Origin: Phytoseiulus persimilis
Lineage: Eukaryota; Arthropoda; Arachnida; Mesostigmata; Phytoseiidae
Assembly (NCBI GenBank): GCA_037576195.1
Contig: CM075104.1
Span: 17,066,211 to 17,130,210, forward strand
Length of the DNA stretch: 64,000 nucleotides
Direction: 5' to 3'
Shown here: piece after piece, positions 16,705 to 25,046 of the stretch
Layout of the letters: every line of letters starts with the position of its first letter
How positions within the stretch are numbered: the stretch's first letter is position 1
Notes under the pieces: generated by a model
Database searches by the model: none
The model's input: only the letters and a program-made list of their open reading frames with translations
Told to the model about the DNA's origin: nothing
Translations under genes and position numbers: made by a program

Positions 16705-17653
16705 CGTCGTACCCGTTATTCTGATAGCCGCGGAAGCCCCGTAGCACGGCAAAGTATGTGAAAGTCCCGTGATCGGAATACTGAGATTAAGCCGGCCAGT
16801 ATGGCACGAGCAGTAAATTGGGAGCAACATTCGCACCAATATGATCCTTGCGTTGAATCATTGAGTCGGCGGGAATTACTTCTAATTGAATGTTCGCGTA
16901 TGAGCACTTCCCAGAGTCCCCCAGGAGCTGCGTCGCTATCGGATCGCCTTGGAAGTTCGGCCTGCGTGCGTGGGCAACAACTTCCGCTCGGCTCACCCTG
17001 CTGCTCAATTTTGGTCATGACACTTTTTCGTCTCTGTCCCACCGTTGTGGTTCAAACTTGGGAAACTCCTGTAAACGTTCTAGTCCGATTTCTCCACTCG
17101 GGATTTCAAGCTGGAATCGGTGCTTGTGGCAACGACTTTCTCGAGAAATGGTTGAAGATAAAGGGGAGGGAGTTGTGACCGAATGTCTCCATCACGGTAA
17201 GCTGAGCCGAAAGGATCTTCATCGTGTCCTCGGATCTAGCACCATCACGAAAAAAGATGTGGTAACGGGAAAAAACTAAACAACGAGGCAATATTTCGAA
17301 GCTCGTCGTGGTGAACATGCAGTTCCATTCGTGCGGTATCGATAATGTGCAAGTGGTGTTGTGACGGCAGTGTCTCGGAGAGCAGTCCGCCCCCGATATG
17401 TGTAACAGACGTTACAGGCTCAGTATCAGGCTTCGCGGAAGGCCTTATTCAACTCGGCAATACTGAATACAATCACAGACTTCATTCGTCGATTCCAATT
17501 AGTGCATGAATCTCCTCAGACCCGCTTCGAGCATGTCTGGGAGAAATCCCATGCACGAGAGCATCATCGTTGATCATTATCACTGGCGTGGGAAATGTTC
17601 TCGGTTTCGCTAATATCTTCGCTGCTCTTCAGGCCTGTACTCCGGGAACCGCA

Positions 17654-20600
17654 ATGAGAGGCGACGACGTCTCATCTAAGGTAGGTGGCCTTTTGAGCTT
17701 TTTTTGGGCTTGATGGCGTCCCTCGTCAGTAACCTCCGAACTCTTTTCTTCCGAATCACCCTTTGTTTATACAAAAGAAATGTTCCAGAGCTCGGATTAT
17801 TCGGCCGAAACTCGGAGCTCATCGGCCACCATCATCAGGCGAGGCCTGGGGCGCGGTCGATCGACAGCAGTGCCCAGCGTCTCTGACTCTGGCCTGGGCA
17901 TAAGTGAGTTTTGCGACTCTTCTTCCCGATTTTGTGAGATCGTCATCATTCAGTTTACTCTCCGCACGTCGGACTTTCTCACAAATCGATAATAAGGTTT
18001 TCGTTTCAGGCGGCTCCTCCCATGAGCCGTCAATCGGCGATTCGCAATCGGTCAGTTCCCGAGGTGAGTGCCTCGCTTCATACCGTCGGAAAGACCGATA
18101 CCGTGCCGGAAGTCGATATATTTGAGTCGAATGGAATCAGAGCTCGAAATTTCTTCACAGTTGAGAAAGCCTCCATCTCAGAAGCGTTCACAGACGCCGA
18201 AGAGTTCCTGACCTGTACCGAGGATGAGCAAGCGGAGGGGGAGCTGTGAGTATCTCAGCCTGGGGTCAACATCGACTTTGCCCAGACCACCGGGGGAAGC
18301 TCTGAGCGACGATATGAAGCTCAGTGATGGATGTTGAATTTCAGCCGTTTCTCAAACATAAACTGCCTATTCTTCGGCGAGCTGCAGAAAGAATCTTTCC
18401 GAGTGTATGAGTATGAAGCGGTGTTTCCTCGAGATCTCTCGCACAAGGGCAGGAAGCTGTTGTTATTGAAAGAAGTCGTCGTGGCACAGCTTGGTGTCAC
18501 CCTCCTGAGTCCGCCGAACGTTCTCTACTCGTCGAAGCCGATTCCTCCCGATAAACTGGTCAGGAGATGAAGTTCACGTTTTCTTTGCTGCTGCCCCCTT
18601 CCCTGTGTACTGTTTACATGTATATCCTATATCCTGTTGCTGTTCCCGAGTGCACCGAGATCTCGTTCCTAAAAAGACGACGCATTCCAGATTCTGAAGA
18701 CCACCCTGCACAATGCTGACGTCACGGTGCACTTCACACCTTCCGAAAGTCCTCTGAAACTCGTTGAGTTCTTCACGTGTCTCCTGAAAAGGGTAAACTG
18801 ACAAAATGTGGCAGCCGGATAAAGCATTCGTACCTTCTTAGATCGTTCTGAATGATAATTTTCCCGCAGATGTCGCTATACCTGACCCAGCCGCAGGCCT
18901 TCATGGCACTGAAGGTGATGTCTCACCAGAACCGCTTCGAAGTGTATCCGGGCGATGTCCTCGATGTCGCTGAGCGCGAATGCATCGTCCGGTGTGCCTC
19001 GACGTTCAACCTGAATCTCGGGAAGGTATCGGATATCATGTAAGTTACGTACCATGCAACGTACGAGGTATCTGTAGCGCAGTGCGGAGGTGGAAGCGTG
19101 CGAAACTTGAAGCTCCACTCTATCCTTCCCCCAGCGAAGAATGCTTCGTTTATTCGGCAATCTGGAGAGTTGATGAAGCGATGCACCAGGAAATAGTGGA
19201 GCGAAACCTCCATGAGCTCATCGTACTAAATGAAACAGATAAGAAGACCTACGTCGTTGAGAGGATTCTTTGGGACGAGAACTCCCGAACCAAGATGCCT
19301 CTGCTGGTAAGTTGAGAGCTCGTAACAGCCAGACGTTTTCTTCGGTTCGATGCCCACATCGAGGTCTCACCCCCACTCCTTCTCCAGCGCTGCAGACGAC
19401 TGAAGTCAGTCACTACGGCTCGACTCTCCCCCACCGTTCTGTTGGTCACAGGATCCCGTCGGACGTCGGGTTCTGTGACTGACCGGGGCCACAGCGGAGG
19501 GGACAAAACCGCGTCCTTCGTGGGAGAGCCTGCTACTGGTCAGCAGCGACAATTGGCCTTGGTGCGCTACAAGGAGATCATGGATCAAGAAATGCCGCAG
19601 AAGTACCTGCATGAGTGGGGTTTAACGTTAGGGGACACAGCAGTCGTCTCAAACCGCGTGGTTCTGCAAACTGAGATGTTGAAAATGCAGGACAACATGT
19701 CAAACCTTGCCACCAGCCGTGGATGGATTGATCGCCTCTCAAACCTCAGAGTCCTCGTCCCGGTAAAATTTCACGTCGCTTGTATAAAACTCATGATCAC
19801 CAACCAACCAGGGTTCCTGACTTCTCTGTCAGAGCTATTGGAGCTCTATTCTGATCGACTCTCGTTTTCTGTTCGAAGGTTCGCATAAAAAACTGGTACG
19901 TGATCTACGAGAAAGGTGACGAGCGACTGATCGAGGACATGGTCGAAATTTTGAAGAGCGACGCGCCGAGGATCGGCATAGAGATGAAGGAGCCCCGGAA
20001 ACGCGCCATCGTAGACATCTCAGCCAAGACCTATGAAGCCACGCTGAGTTCGTGTTTGAAGCTACAAGTGGGTTGCGTCCTGGGATTCTTCCGTCGATTG
20101 GATCCGACGATTGCTGGAATCTCTTGGCACGGCGAGTCAAGAACCCTTAGATCGCAAGGTTCGGTACTGAAATCAAACTTATCATTTAGCCCAACATCGA
20201 GCTATTCATGGTCGTTGTACGCTCGAATCGCACGGACATCTACAACATGGTGAAGAAATGGAGTCTTTGTCAGAAGAGGCCCATCGTCACTCAAGTCGTC
20301 ATGCGGGAAACGGCCAAACAGATCTGCAACTTGTTAGAATACAGTTTCTCGGTCATTACCCAGATAAACTGCAAGCTCGGTGGTGCTTTGTGGGCTCTTG
20401 ACAGAACCGTTGACAATACTTTGGTGATCGGTGAGTAGGATGTCTAGTTCGTTCGGCGATCTGAGCTGTCAAAAGAGGAGAACGCTGCTTCCCGAGCTGG
20501 CACCCGAAGCACGACCCCAGATCGGAACTACCACCAATATTTTGTTTGTTTGGCTGTTGCAGGGCTTTCAATGTACACGTCCAGTGATGGGAACGACGTT

Positions 20601-21417
20601 TTGGGCTTTGTTTCATCGAGGAACAAGCTTTTCACGCAATGGTATTCCTACGCTATCATGGATCGTGAAGCCGAATTGAAGGAACAATTGGCAATCGCCA
20701 TCGAAAAATATTCACGAGTAAGCTGAAGAGTTCCGTCCATGGGTCTAACCGCTCGAGAGAAACGATTTGACGATTAGGATCTTTATTTCGGGTGCGGTCT
20801 GGAAATGGACAACGTCCAAGTGTTGACGCTGATTCATGTTTTAGGAAAATGCTATGGCTGTTCCCGACCGGATCATCGTGCTCTCAAATCAAATCGATGA
20901 TGACGACCTTCCGGCCGACATTGAACGCTGCGTTCGAGCAGTATTCAAGGGCAAGCTGACGCTCGTTCATGTGGAGGATGTTGCGAGGTAAACAAGCACG
21001 GGCCCGTAAACAGTGACTCTGCTCATTGAATGATTCTTGACGTGATTGATTTTAAGAGAATCTTCACCGCCTCAACGAAGTACATTTTTCAGGTACAACA
21101 AGACCGTGTACAATCTTGCAAAAGACACTCGTGTGGAGGAACTGAAAAGAATGCAGAAGAAGTACCTTTTTGTGCCACAAAGAGCCGGGAGAGAGCTCGA
21201 TATGATCTGTTGCCGATTGGACTTCAACGATCCCGGCCTAACGCCGAAGGAGATCGCCGGTGTCATCAGGCAGTTGAAGCATGTTTACTACAACGTCGCC
21301 GGTGAAGTGAACCTACCGGCGCCGGTGCTTTACGCCGAACGCTGCGCGGAATTCGTGTCGGACGTCCTGGAAGGCCGGCAGAACGAAGAGATTCGCGACA
21401 AACTGTACTATTTATAA
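17654..21417 (+). CDS. piwi: Piwi-clade Argonaute protein with degenerate slicer site, 14 exons
   Basis: Piwi proteins bind piRNAs and silence transposons. Exons: 17654-17680, 17789-17903, 18010-18063, 18143-18245, 18345-18558, 18691-18792, 18870-19039, 19135-19306, 19388-19762, 19879-20067, 20190-20430, 20563-20717, 20845-20987, 21093-21417; phases match throughout (2385 nt, 794 aa). Order: short RG tail (RRGLGRGR, 26-33), N domain (about 100-205), PAZ (about 228-350), MID, PIWI ending LPAPVLYAE and the family terminus DKLYYL. MID keeps the 5'-phosphate pocket (Y525, K529, Q542, K569 in NCKLGG). The PIWI tetrad is degraded: GID is GLS (Ser590), YRDG is LSNQ (Asn654), and the histidine position is Met724; only the glutamate finger (Glu625) remains. 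It is therefore predicted to be unable to cut, which is inference. The joins of exons 2-4 are the least certain; a start at ATG 18022 reading through to 18245 is an alternative. Confidence 0.95.
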
Positions 21418-21457
21418 CGAAAATTTTATTCCACACATACGTGCTCCCTGTAATCAT

Positions 21458-21463
21458 AATAAA
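21458..21463 (+). promoter_or_regulatory. Poly(A) signal AATAAA of the Piwi gene
   Basis: AATAAA lies 40 bases after the Piwi stop codon, a normal spacing for the 3' end of this transcript. Confidence 0.75.
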
Positions 21464-21752
21464 CCTATCTAAAGAGGGGACGTGATTGTCACACATTCGG
21501 TATGCTGCCTGGTGTAGTGGTTGTTTGCGGAGCTGGCTCGAATATGCGAGAGAGGGCTCGACCATTCTCTACTGAATCCCTTTATGGAGCTGAATCGAGC
21601 TCATGGCGGCACTTTCAATGACTCGAGAACGAGCGACTGTCAGATTCAGCGCTCGTCAGAATCACCGCTTTGCCCTCCCACTTGGACCGCGACGAGAGTT
21701 GTCGCTAGCAGTTGGTAAACATCCTCCGAATTCGTCTGCTCATCCGAGTAAA

Positions 21753-21881
21753 GGGTATAGGAACTTTGCCCGCAGTGTTTACTATATGAACGCATTTTCA
21801 GAGAGAGCGGCCTCCGCCAGCTTGACGGTCTGCTACTGGCACGGTGAGAGCTGTTGCTGGGAGACCGCGACGACAGCGGGG
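21753..21881 (+). repeat. Left arm of a 129-bp inverted repeat
   Basis: Bases 21753-21881 match the reverse complement of 22459-22587 over the full 129 bases with no gap and about six mismatches (about 95%). The arm starts GGGTATAGGAACTTTGCCCG and ends GACAGCGGGG. A transcript through both arms would fold into a long hairpin with a loop of about 577 nt. It lies 0.3 kb downstream of the Piwi poly(A) signal. It could be the terminal repeats of a foldback/MITE element or a local inverted duplication. Confidence 0.9.
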
Positions 21882-22458
21882 CGAAACACAATTGAGAATC
21901 CGTGTACTTTCACAAGGGATGAGGGTTGGTAATGAGGAGGTTCGGCTCTAGGTTTCAGAGGGAGAAGATGATTAGGGGTCGGTAGGCAGTGTATGACACG
22001 CATTTTCGAATTCCGGGAGAGTTCATCCAAGACACTTTCCGTCCAGGAAGCGAACGTTTCCGAGGGAGACGCGAAAAACCGACTGAGTCACTACTCTGCA
22101 CATGGCGGATCCGCTTCAGTGCCGAGGAGGCCTCACGGCCACGGAGTTCTTCGGTCTTCAACCGCCGAAGACCAGAGGTTCCGTGGAGTTTCATCCCACT
22201 GTGTCCTGTCCGAGATGAGAATCACTCAATGCGTCTCGCTGTTCTCGACTTCTTCTCCTTGTATTGAGCCTGACCCAATGTTCTGCTGTTCACCTTGCGT
22301 ATCGACTCCTCGCCATCTGAACTGACATTGTTGACGAAGGATCATGTGTGAACCATGGAATCTTTGGAAATTTCATCATTCCCCGGCGAACCATCCCAGC
22401 TCTCCTCGCTGTTCCGCGCCTGGATCTTGCTTGAAATGCTCGGTGGCCCCGCTAGACT
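21882..22458. other. Spacer between the inverted-repeat arms
   Basis: About 577 bases of unique-looking sequence. Short frames occur on the plus strand (21989-22267, 21993-22325) without recognisable domains and without transposase motifs. Confidence 0.5.
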
Positions 22459-22587
22459 CCCCGCTGTCGTCGCGGTGTCCCAGCAACAGCTCTCGGCGTT
22501 CCCGTAGCAGACCGCCAAGCTGGCGGAGGCCGCTCTCTCTGAAAATGCGTTCATATAGTAAACACTGCGGGCAAAGTTCCTATACCC
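22459..22587 (-). repeat. Right arm of the 129-bp inverted repeat
   Basis: Reverse complement of 21753-21881 with about six substitutions and no indels. The last base of the arm is 78 bases before the start codon chosen for KXD1, so the arm may lie within the KXD1 promoter or 5' UTR. Confidence 0.9.
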
Positions 22588-22664
22588 CCGAGTAAACAGG
22601 TGGATGTCATGATGATGAGAGCAGTTGGAAGTGCCGATCAGCTGAGGACTTCCAGGATGGTTTC

Positions 22665-23366
22665 ATGATGCATTCAGGTAGCCCCGAGCGTTGTACTAGG
22701 GATGGTCATCAGCCTATGAATACCTCGAGCATGGATTTGGACTTCGGAGAACAGCTATCCGCGAGCCAAATTCTCAGCAGGGATTTGGCTGCAATGCTGA
22801 ATGTTGATGACATTGAAAGAGTTAAAGAAACACAGAAAGTGAGTCAACCATACAGAATATAGTCCCGGTAGACTGGTCTCCGTCAGCATATATATTCGGT
22901 TCGAGATTCGGAGAATCTACACACCGGTTCCTCGGTTCACCTTGAAATTTTACGAGCGGGCTCCGGTCGATCTCACTTCGGAGAGTTCCAGTCGCTGTCA
23001 ACCTGGAAACGCGTCGTTTCAGGTAATGTTGGAACGCTTCGAAAAATCGAACTGCATGCTGGCCACTTGTAACGGACTTTCACAGAGCCGTCTCGCGGTG
23101 GCATCGAAAGAGCTTTCTCAAGTGAGTTTGCCGAGCTCTCCTGAGGTATCATGTACATCTGAAGCGGGAAGATAAGGTCGAACTTGACCGGCATTTTTTG
23201 TCCACCGCAGCACGTCTCACTTCTGCAGGAGCTTAAGAAGGATCTCGACAACGTTTTTGGGCGGATACGGTTTTTGAAGTCAACTTTGGCGAAACAATAC
23301 CCCGAGGCATTCACGAATTCGAAACTGCCGGAGCTCAATGAAGAGGAAGAAAACAAAGACGAGTGA
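22665..23366 (+). CDS. KXD1: KxDL motif-containing protein (KXD1), 3 exons
   Basis: KXD1 is a small coiled-coil subunit of the BLOC-1-related complex BORC, which couples lysosomes to kinesin through ARL8. Exons 22665-22838, 23023-23121 and 23211-23366 join in phase 0 and give 142 aa. The family core is clear: MLERFEKSNCML (exon 2), then LKKDLDNVFGRIRFLK and LAKQYPEAF (exon 3). The last two match the conserved KxDLxxIFxRIRxLKxxLxxQxPEAF block, with the KxDL motif itself at residues 100-103 (KKDL). The C-terminus is acidic (NEEEENKDE). The N-terminal residues before MNTSSMDLDF (ATG 22716) are weakly supported, so that ATG is an alternative start. Length is close to other invertebrate members. 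It lies directly downstream of the inverted repeat. Confidence 0.93.
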
Positions 23367-23513
23367 AGCTCAATCGCGATACCGCAAGGCTGTCACTCAT
23401 GGTAATCGACGAACGCTGTTCAGTTCGAACAGGACGATTTCCTGCGGACTCGGGAGGCCTCGTTCACATGTTCCGTAATCGATCGGGAGCATCTCTGTAT
23501 CAAATAACGATGG

Positions 23514-23519
23514 AATAAA
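23514..23519 (+). promoter_or_regulatory. Poly(A) signal AATAAA of KXD1
   Basis: AATAAA lies 148 bases after the KXD1 stop codon in the sense orientation. Confidence 0.65.
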
Positions 23520-25046
23520 GCCGCTCGAGACAGTTCCTCGTATCTTCACTGCAGGATTTACTGCCCCCCATCATTCAAGGTCACCCTTGACATTACATTT
23601 CGTTCCTTTCGCCATGCTTGAGTGATGGGCCAAGAACTTTTCTTCAATTCATCGAGCGGTCCCGTAGCCAAAGAGACGCATAAGGAGACCCTGAATCTCG
23701 AGGGAAAGTGGCCGCCCCCCTGCGAATGGAAGGGAACAGGTCATTCATCGTAATACGAGTTAATCCTCAACATACAGTAATGCTGATAACAAATCATAAA
23801 CGCCAGGGCATCGAATTCGATCGATCCAACACTGACACCATCGGCTTTCTCACGTTAAGTCTACACCTCTGATCTCTACTCATGGTCACAACAAGCCTCC
23901 CTGGCCTTAGTGGAGTCCTTGAACGCATGACATCCGTCATGAGATTGAGGTTCTTGACCGGTCCCTGGATCCAGGATTTTCTTCGGAAGGCAACCGGCTC
24001 CCAGAGCCGACAACGCTGCGGTGGGAGCACCCTCCCGGAGAGCCCAGCCGTGACCTGGGGAGCGGCTTGACCACGCTTGGCAAAGCCGCAACACCCGAGT
24101 ATGGTCCTCGCCGCTTCAAAAATCAGGAACGAATATTTCCTCGATTCCGGACGAGGGTCTTGGGGAAGCTGCCATCGATGTTACGGGTACATGGAAATGC
24201 GCCGTGCAGGACCTGACACCCACGGGATTATACAGCTCCTCGGAAACTCCCGGTTCTTGGAAACCAGGGAATATTTCGAAAATGGGAGCGCGTCAGCTGG
24301 GCCGCGGCGTCAACTGGGCCCCGGCGTCTACTGGGCCTCGCCGTCAACTTCCGAGCGGACCGGCTGGGGAGTTGACGGAACCCAGTAGCGTAACCAGGGG
24401 TAAACTCTTCGGTCATACCGGGAAGGGTGGTTTCCATTCTGCTTCTATTGATGAAAGTATCCCGAAAGATTCAGTCTGATCAGTAACATGCTCGCAGGTT
24501 CGAAAACTACATTGATTTCGTCATGAAAAGCTCGCTACGCTTATCAACAAAAATGGTCCTCAGCGCATCCGTCGTGATTATGATCATAATCAACATCACA
24601 TCCCTTAACCCTTCTCCAAATGAAGGGCTGTGTACGCCGCTGGGGGAAGCAGACTGCTCGAATGAGATCTCAGATTCAGACAACATACATCACAAGTCAC
24701 CGCTTCCGCCGCCACGGTTTGCAAACTTAGCCTAAGGTGCTTTTGGGCTCCCTCTCTGGCACGAGACTTCGGCCTTCTTGAATCCGTTCGGGACAACTTT
24801 GTTAAACGCGTTGCCAAACGGTGTGGTTCCTCTCCGGACTCCATTGACCTCCGTCGAATTGTAAATCTTCATGAAAACGCCGACATCAACATGCTCAGGA
24901 AAATCATCCGCACCGATAAACTTCATCAGTATTTTGACGTTACGTCAAACAACAGGAGATCGGGAATACACCTGAAGTCATAGTGGATCGCACGCTCCGA
25001 TAGAGTCAACGACCTCTGCTCCTGCCCTGTTCTAAGAAAGCCAGAG
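23520..25046. other. Unresolved region with a 17-bp minisatellite and two weak frames
   Basis: A plus frame at 24523-24735 begins MKSSLRLSTKMVLSASVVIM, which resembles a signal peptide, but no further exon was found. A minus frame from about 24947 to 24732 reads KILMKFIGADDFPEHVDVGV onward to a stop and looks protein-like. An in-frame TGA lies upstream of it and no acceptor was confirmed. The rest is without signal. Confidence 0.35.
24291..24358 (+). repeat. 17-bp degenerate minisatellite, 4 copies
   Basis: Four consecutive 17-base units start CGTCAGCTGGGCC, CGTCAACTGGGCC, CGTCTACTGGGCC and CGTCAACTTCCGA. The period equals that of the minisatellite at 16437, but the unit sequence is unrelated. 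Confidence 0.8.

Follow-up and report, generated by a model that had tools for sequence, protein, structure and literature searches.

Slicing by Argonaute proteins needs a DEDH catalytic tetrad, and a pocket in the MID domain holds the 5' phosphate of the guide RNA. According to the available sections of PMC5805368, ping-pong amplification in well-studied animals is driven by Piwi slicing, which also initiates much of their piRNA production, and dust mites have no Piwi, Zucchini or Armitage. Among Argonautes in general, the sections available of PMC10101689 assign the tetrad to relatively few and describe many that act via recruited proteins; the WAGOs are described there as more divergent in the 5' pocket, with a preference for triphosphate RNAs. 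In four mesostigmatan mites (Metaseiulus occidentalis, Tropilaelaps mercedesae, Varroa destructor and V. jacobsoni), a Piwi-family protein named 'Ago3' has a PIWI domain but no PAZ domain and no DDH residues, as described in the available part of Nganso et al. 2020 (PMC7659050). That part counts 1, 1, 1 and 2 such proteins (the two in V. jacobsoni) and no Aubergine/Piwi in any of the four species. It gives substitutions pooled over species, such as Ser-Arg-Gly and Ser-Asn-Ser, leaves the activity of the mesostigmatan Ago3 open, and finds DDH in only four of the six Piwi-family proteins of T. urticae. The words Maelstrom, zucchini and ping-pong are absent from the text of PMC7659050. For Dermanyssus gallinae, which like M. 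occidentalis belongs to the Mesostigmata, the available sections of PMC7813172 report that reciprocal best hits with the proteins of T. urticae yielded no Piwi orthologue, and that any sequence without PAZ or Piwi domains was dropped before the tree was built. With reciprocal best hits and a domain filter of this kind, a protein as divergent as the one described here could have been missed. Among open-licence papers we found none on the small RNAs of a phytoseiid Piwi, and the words piwi and piRNA are absent from the available sections of a Varroa virus small-RNA paper (PMC10746231).

We analyzed a 64,000-nucleotide stretch of the Phytoseiulus persimilis genome (contig CM075104.1, positions 17,066,211 to 17,130,210; hereafter the window, with positions counted from its first letter). 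An initial annotation had described positions 20430..21417 as a Piwi protein that lost three of four slicer residues and kept its guide-RNA pocket. This stretch covers only the PIWI region; the gene itself is larger, and its exon-intron model was drawn up by eye from reading frames and splice sites:

17654..21417, + strand: divergent Piwi gene, 14 exons, 788 amino acids, start codon presumed
17654-17680, 17789-17903, 18010-18063, 18161-18245, 18345-18558, 18691-18792, 18870-19039, + strand: exons 1-7
19135-19306, 19388-19762, 19879-20067, 20190-20430, 20563-20717, 20845-20987, 21093-21417, + strand: exons 8-14

The spliced coding sequence (2367 nt with the stop) is a single open frame of 788 amino acids that ends in LYYL, and each of the 13 introns is of the GT-AG type, with lengths of 77-132 nt. 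No stop was observed in the 788 codons, whereas neutral change of one substitution per site predicts about 106. Neither the frame nor a splice site is broken, so that the gene was rightly called intron-rich, with an intact reading frame. That it is not a pseudogene is supported for the copy in the window, which is free of stops despite a very long branch in the tree given below. The description as full-length calls for reservations: the second half of PAZ is unrecognisable and the PIWI core is shorter by about 20 columns. Residue numbers in the initial annotation are six higher than those of the model used here.

We then asked to which clade the protein belongs. In a phmmer search of the PDB, 13 distinct sequences matched at E<=0.01, all of them Piwi chains (named Piwi, Piwi-A, PIWIL1, PIWIL2, Siwi and Drosophila Piwi) or the Asgard HrAgo1, and no eukaryotic Ago was among the matches at this threshold. 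The Pfam Piwi score was 77 bits. A 14-row tree was built from the protein, three canonical Piwis as the sole Piwis from outside (PIWIL1, EfPiwi and PIWIL2) and ten Agos from the same genome, with the second genomic copy of the gene, on contig C3, left out. Open pieces, linked without modelling of introns, made up the Ago rows; the row C3:19.9 lacked its last matched piece, and the row C2:51.28 had its C-terminus trimmed. The protein grouped with the three Piwis at 100/100, apart from the ten Agos, on an extremely long branch of 4.58 changes per column. The tree output warned that a row with such a long branch is placed with uncertainty, and we therefore count the PDB result as a second line of evidence; both group the protein with Piwi rather than with Ago. 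Since the published mesostigmatan members likewise have no detected PAZ (PMC7659050, available part), the assignment to the Piwi clade is made by tree and MID domain and not by domain order.

The four catalytic columns were located by a MAFFT alignment of the protein with PIWIL1, EfPiwi, PIWIL2 and the ten Agos of the same genome, and by pairwise phmmer runs with the three Piwis:

20568..20570, + strand: Ser584, column of the first catalytic Asp
20673..20675, + strand: Glu619 (Glu625 in the initial annotation), possibly the catalytic Glu, on which the alignments conflict
20887..20889, + strand: Asn648, column of the second catalytic Asp
21208..21210, + strand: Cys720, the preferred reading for the column of the catalytic His

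In MAFFT the D-E-D-H columns of PIWIL1 fell on Ser584, a gap, Asn648 and Cys720. Ser584 and Asn648 stood at the Asp columns in all three phmmer runs as well, which bears out the replacement of both Asp residues first reported as Ser590 and Asn654. The Glu that had been called kept is less certain: Glu619 lay opposite the catalytic Glu in the three phmmer runs (posterior marks *, 5 and 5) and in the Piwi profile (posterior about 0.6), whereas MAFFT put a deletion at that column. When the protein itself was the query, PIWIL1 and PIWIL2 again put Glu619 at the Glu, and EfPiwi showed a deletion there. The catalytic Glu may thus be retained as Glu619. At the His column, Cys720 was aligned in the phmmer run with PIWIL1 at a weak posterior (mark 6, lower in the run with the protein as query), and the runs with EfPiwi and PIWIL2 left the position unaligned. 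Weak as this alignment is, Cys720 fits the column better than the residue first proposed, Met724, which lies two residues upstream. There is no His near Cys720 in the protein; Asp717 lies three residues upstream and, with both catalytic Asp gone, would not form an active site. In place of a DEDH or DEDD tetrad the protein therefore reads Ser584, an uncertain Glu619, Asn648 and Cys720, and the claim that three of four slicer residues are lost stands, the third most likely as Cys720 on a weak alignment. Because both Asp are lost with or without the Glu, the reading of Glu619 does not affect how probable it is that the protein is slicer-dead. We also ran the check proposed with the initial annotation, a search for an Asp or His restored through another exon junction. 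Three motif patterns and the Piwi profile revealed no substitute tetrad residue in introns or across other junctions in the three + frames of 17501-21700.

The region upstream of the tetrad contains the MID pocket:

20190..20430, + strand: MID pocket exon, matching the Piwi columns in MAFFT
20241-20243, 20253-20255 and 20292-20294, + strand: Tyr519, Lys523 and Gln536 of the MID pocket
20361-20363 and 20373-20375, + strand: Gln559 and Lys563 of the MID pocket

All five scored positions of the 5'-phosphate pocket (Y-K-Q-Q-K) are identical to those of canonical Piwi; the conserved pocket residues given for AGO2 in the available sections of PMC10101689 are Y529, K533, Q545, K570 and C546. The four residues listed as an intact pocket (Tyr525, Lys529, Gln542 and Lys569) correspond to Tyr519, Lys523, Gln536 and Lys563, and Gln559 is kept in addition. 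Forty-eight columns are invariant in the three canonical Piwis and common to at least seven of the ten Agos, and the protein keeps 24 of them: nine of ten up to residue 566, six of 27 at residues 582-733 and nine of 11 beyond (Fisher p=0.0003 for 9/10 versus 6/27, with region boundaries picked after viewing the data). These last columns are those of the C-terminus. Among columns selected only as invariant in the three Piwis, the protein keeps 10/23 in L2/MID, 15/32 in the MID core, 15/31 at residues 580-650, 3/24 at 651-721 and 15/36 in the C-terminus. Loss is concentrated in residues 651-721, and MID is kept no better than the start or the end of PIWI. Identity to the three Piwis is 13-18% at residues 651-721, with 18-21 gapped columns, 27-33% in the MID core and 17-33% across L2/MID and MID core; the canonical Piwis among themselves share 40-47% in the 651-721 region and 49-64% in the MID core.

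The N-terminal half contains a remnant of PAZ and a short motif:

19181..19303, + strand: PAZ remnant, residues 272-312, Pfam PAZ positions 15-56 of 123
17837..17860, + strand: RRGLGRGR, residues 26-33, RG motif near the N-terminus, from the translation

The Pfam PAZ match of the remnant scored 12.5 bits, below the cut-off of 28.8. A search of the own genome with PF02170 found 15 places, at the ten Ago loci and at C4:24014853 (a Dicer, at a guess), and gave no match at the Piwi gene (17654-21417). RRGLGRGR is a possible site of arginine methylation and Tudor binding.

Next, we asked whether the genome encodes a second Piwi. The assembly searched is 181.0 Mb, of which 173.7 Mb is in four contigs, and match counts are lower bounds. 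PF02171 gave at least 22 matches, at ten Ago loci, the Piwi gene of the window and one copy of it. A PIWIL1 query (429 aa) found all ten Ago loci, the gene and the copy; an EfPiwi query (a 270-aa fragment) recovered the gene and its copy, five of the ten Ago loci and, with E values no better than 0.85, three further places. Within these lower-bound counts, none of the three queries revealed a second, canonical Piwi, and the gene in the window is very probably the only intact Piwi of the genome. DEDH is kept in eight of the ten Agos; in the Ago at C3:19.9 Mb His replaces the first Asp, and in that at C1:17.3 Mb the catalytic His segment is absent. Three related Agos (L023, L024 and L025) read His-Lys-Lys-Gly-Lys at the MID pocket columns, versus Tyr-Lys-Gln-Lys-Lys, and two of them have N-terminal frames rich in glycine and arginine. 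Together with the several genomic RdRPs, these three might bind 5'-triphosphate RNAs, by analogy with nematode WAGOs.

The one copy found lies on another contig:

20214..21684, + strand: duplicated stretch, 95.5% identical to contig C3 near 9737000 (- strand)

The C3 copy starts within exon 11, and so is 5'-truncated. In it a stop stands in place of Tyr786 and Glu in place of Lys523, and 3 nt are deleted; it looks like a recent dead fragment. Differences between the gene and this copy (pN 19/650, pS 8/184, two gapped codons excluded) give no sign of purifying selection and have no power to reveal it. Window positions 22605-23538 are also about 95% identical to C3 and adjoin there the match to 20214-21684. 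The intervening 21685-22604 is missing from the C3 duplicate and holds 129-nt inverted arms (21753-21881 and 22459-22587) that are 95% complementary; it is probably a TIR element inserted after the duplication. Downstream, a KxDL-domain gene lies at 22605-23366 (PF10241, 80.6 bits, exons joined by hand), in a stretch also present in the C3 duplicate. Near the duplicate is a long tandem repeat (L028 reverse complement, 111-1034) that encodes units resembling LWRGDSETNLSITSQ.

Searches of the same genome for other piRNA-pathway genes found three Maelstrom-domain places above the cut-off (L044, L045 and L046), whereas model animals have one copy. Tudor gave 31 matches at E<=0.1, and RdRP gave 32, over three contigs. 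No Zucchini-type gene was seen with one Pfam model, PF13091; its two matches lie in the same gene, a 258-aa piece of which has PLD3 as its best PDB match. No GTSF1-type finger was seen with PF05253, a 25-position model of low power in a six-frame search.

The PDB search, the tree and the alignments together uphold the description of a Piwi-clade protein in which slicer residues are lost and the 5'-phosphate pocket is kept. Judged from its sequence, the protein is almost certainly both Piwi-clade and slicer-dead, the latter since other residues occupy both catalytic Asp columns and most likely the His column. To explain these data, we suggest a maintained, fast-evolving protein that is unable to slice. 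Its intact MID pocket would most likely still hold the 5' end of a small RNA, and PAZ would anchor the 3' end of the guides weakly or not at all. Silencing would be exerted by recruited partners such as Maelstrom and Tudor proteins, without cutting. We consider this explanation as a whole evenly poised, and the same even weight is given to guide binding taken by itself; a role in transcriptional silencing is possible but somewhat doubtful. The nuclear silencing suggested in the initial annotation is likewise hypothetical. Ping-pong by this Piwi alone looks impossible. Extended to mesostigmatan mites at large, the explanation would have Piwi-guided silencing carried out by a slicer-dead, 3'-unanchored Piwi alone, without ping-pong, with guides from, for example, RdRP or Dicer products and by pure recruitment, a proposal that we hold to be rather unlikely.

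An unlikely alternative is that the piRNA pathway has been lost, that siRNAs and RdRP control transposons, and that the last Piwi is drifting under relaxed constraint towards loss. The very long branch (4.58) is also compatible with relaxed constraint and half of PAZ is gone, but the 788 codons are open, the 13 introns are intact, and the shared MID and C-terminal columns are retained. No Zucchini or GTSF1 candidate was seen beside the 32 RdRP matches over three contigs, yet Maelstrom and Tudor genes are present. Dust mites have no Piwi, Zucchini or Armitage (PMC5805368) and D. gallinae has no reported Piwi orthologue (PMC7813172), as far as the available sections go; the method used for D. 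gallinae, however, could have missed so divergent a protein, and similar proteins are retained in four mesostigmatan mites (PMC7659050, available part). Similarly unlikely is a Piwi derivative that works without a guide, as a scaffold acting via its fold and the N-terminal RG motif. The loss of slicer residues, of half of PAZ and of about 20 PIWI-core columns would agree with such a protein, as would RRGLGRGR, but the 5/5 canonical pocket positions would then have no obvious reason. Finally, it is highly improbable that catalytic residues sit on other exons or that a canonical Piwi is absent from the assembly: exon boundaries were assigned by eye from splice sites and reading frames, and genome match counts are lower bounds, but nothing better was found in the + frames of 17501-21700 with three motif patterns and the Piwi profile, the three substituted codons lie inside exons, the introns are just 77-132 nt, and the same state is reported from other genomes of the order (PMC7659050, available part).

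Returning to the proposed non-slicing Piwi, we compared it with known systems. Drosophila Piwi (PDB 6kr6) belongs to the same Piwi clade, as judged from the PDB match, silences without a need for slicing and has a full PAZ; its tetrad is presumably kept, as the initial annotation stated, unlike that of the present protein. The parallel is weakened because the second half of PAZ is missing here and no Zucchini- or GTSF1-type gene was seen with one Pfam model each. PIWIL1, PIWIL2 and EfPiwi share the MID pocket columns and the C-terminus with the protein, but their PIWI core is complete; PIWIL1 and PIWIL2 read DEDH, and in the printed sequence of the sponge Piwi (EfPiwi; PDB chains 7yfq and 7kx7) the catalytic His column is occupied by Tyr. 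The WAGOs of C. elegans may resemble the protein in tetrad loss and in the recruitment proposed for it, two traits given for Argonautes in general, but have a more divergent 5' pocket (PMC10101689, available sections) whereas its pocket is canonical; the MID pocket is unaltered, and the tree held no WAGO sequence.

Beyond the initial annotation, we add that this state was already published for Mesostigmata in the available part of PMC7659050, and that the searches of the assembly turned up no canonical Piwi. A genome in which the one intact Piwi cannot slice offers a natural experiment on Piwi function without cutting, and since the loss is reported there from four mesostigmatan mites, it may be old and stable. 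Compared by description, the protein is like the mesostigmatan 'Ago3' in each respect: it is Piwi-family, has no detected PAZ and no DDH, and has no Aubergine/Piwi beside it. At the DDH columns it reads Ser-Asn-Cys, against Ser-Arg-Gly and Ser-Asn-Ser among the published Ago3 (PMC7659050, available part). We therefore regard the protein as a putative further example of this kind, the state of which was already known and with which orthology is only presumed.
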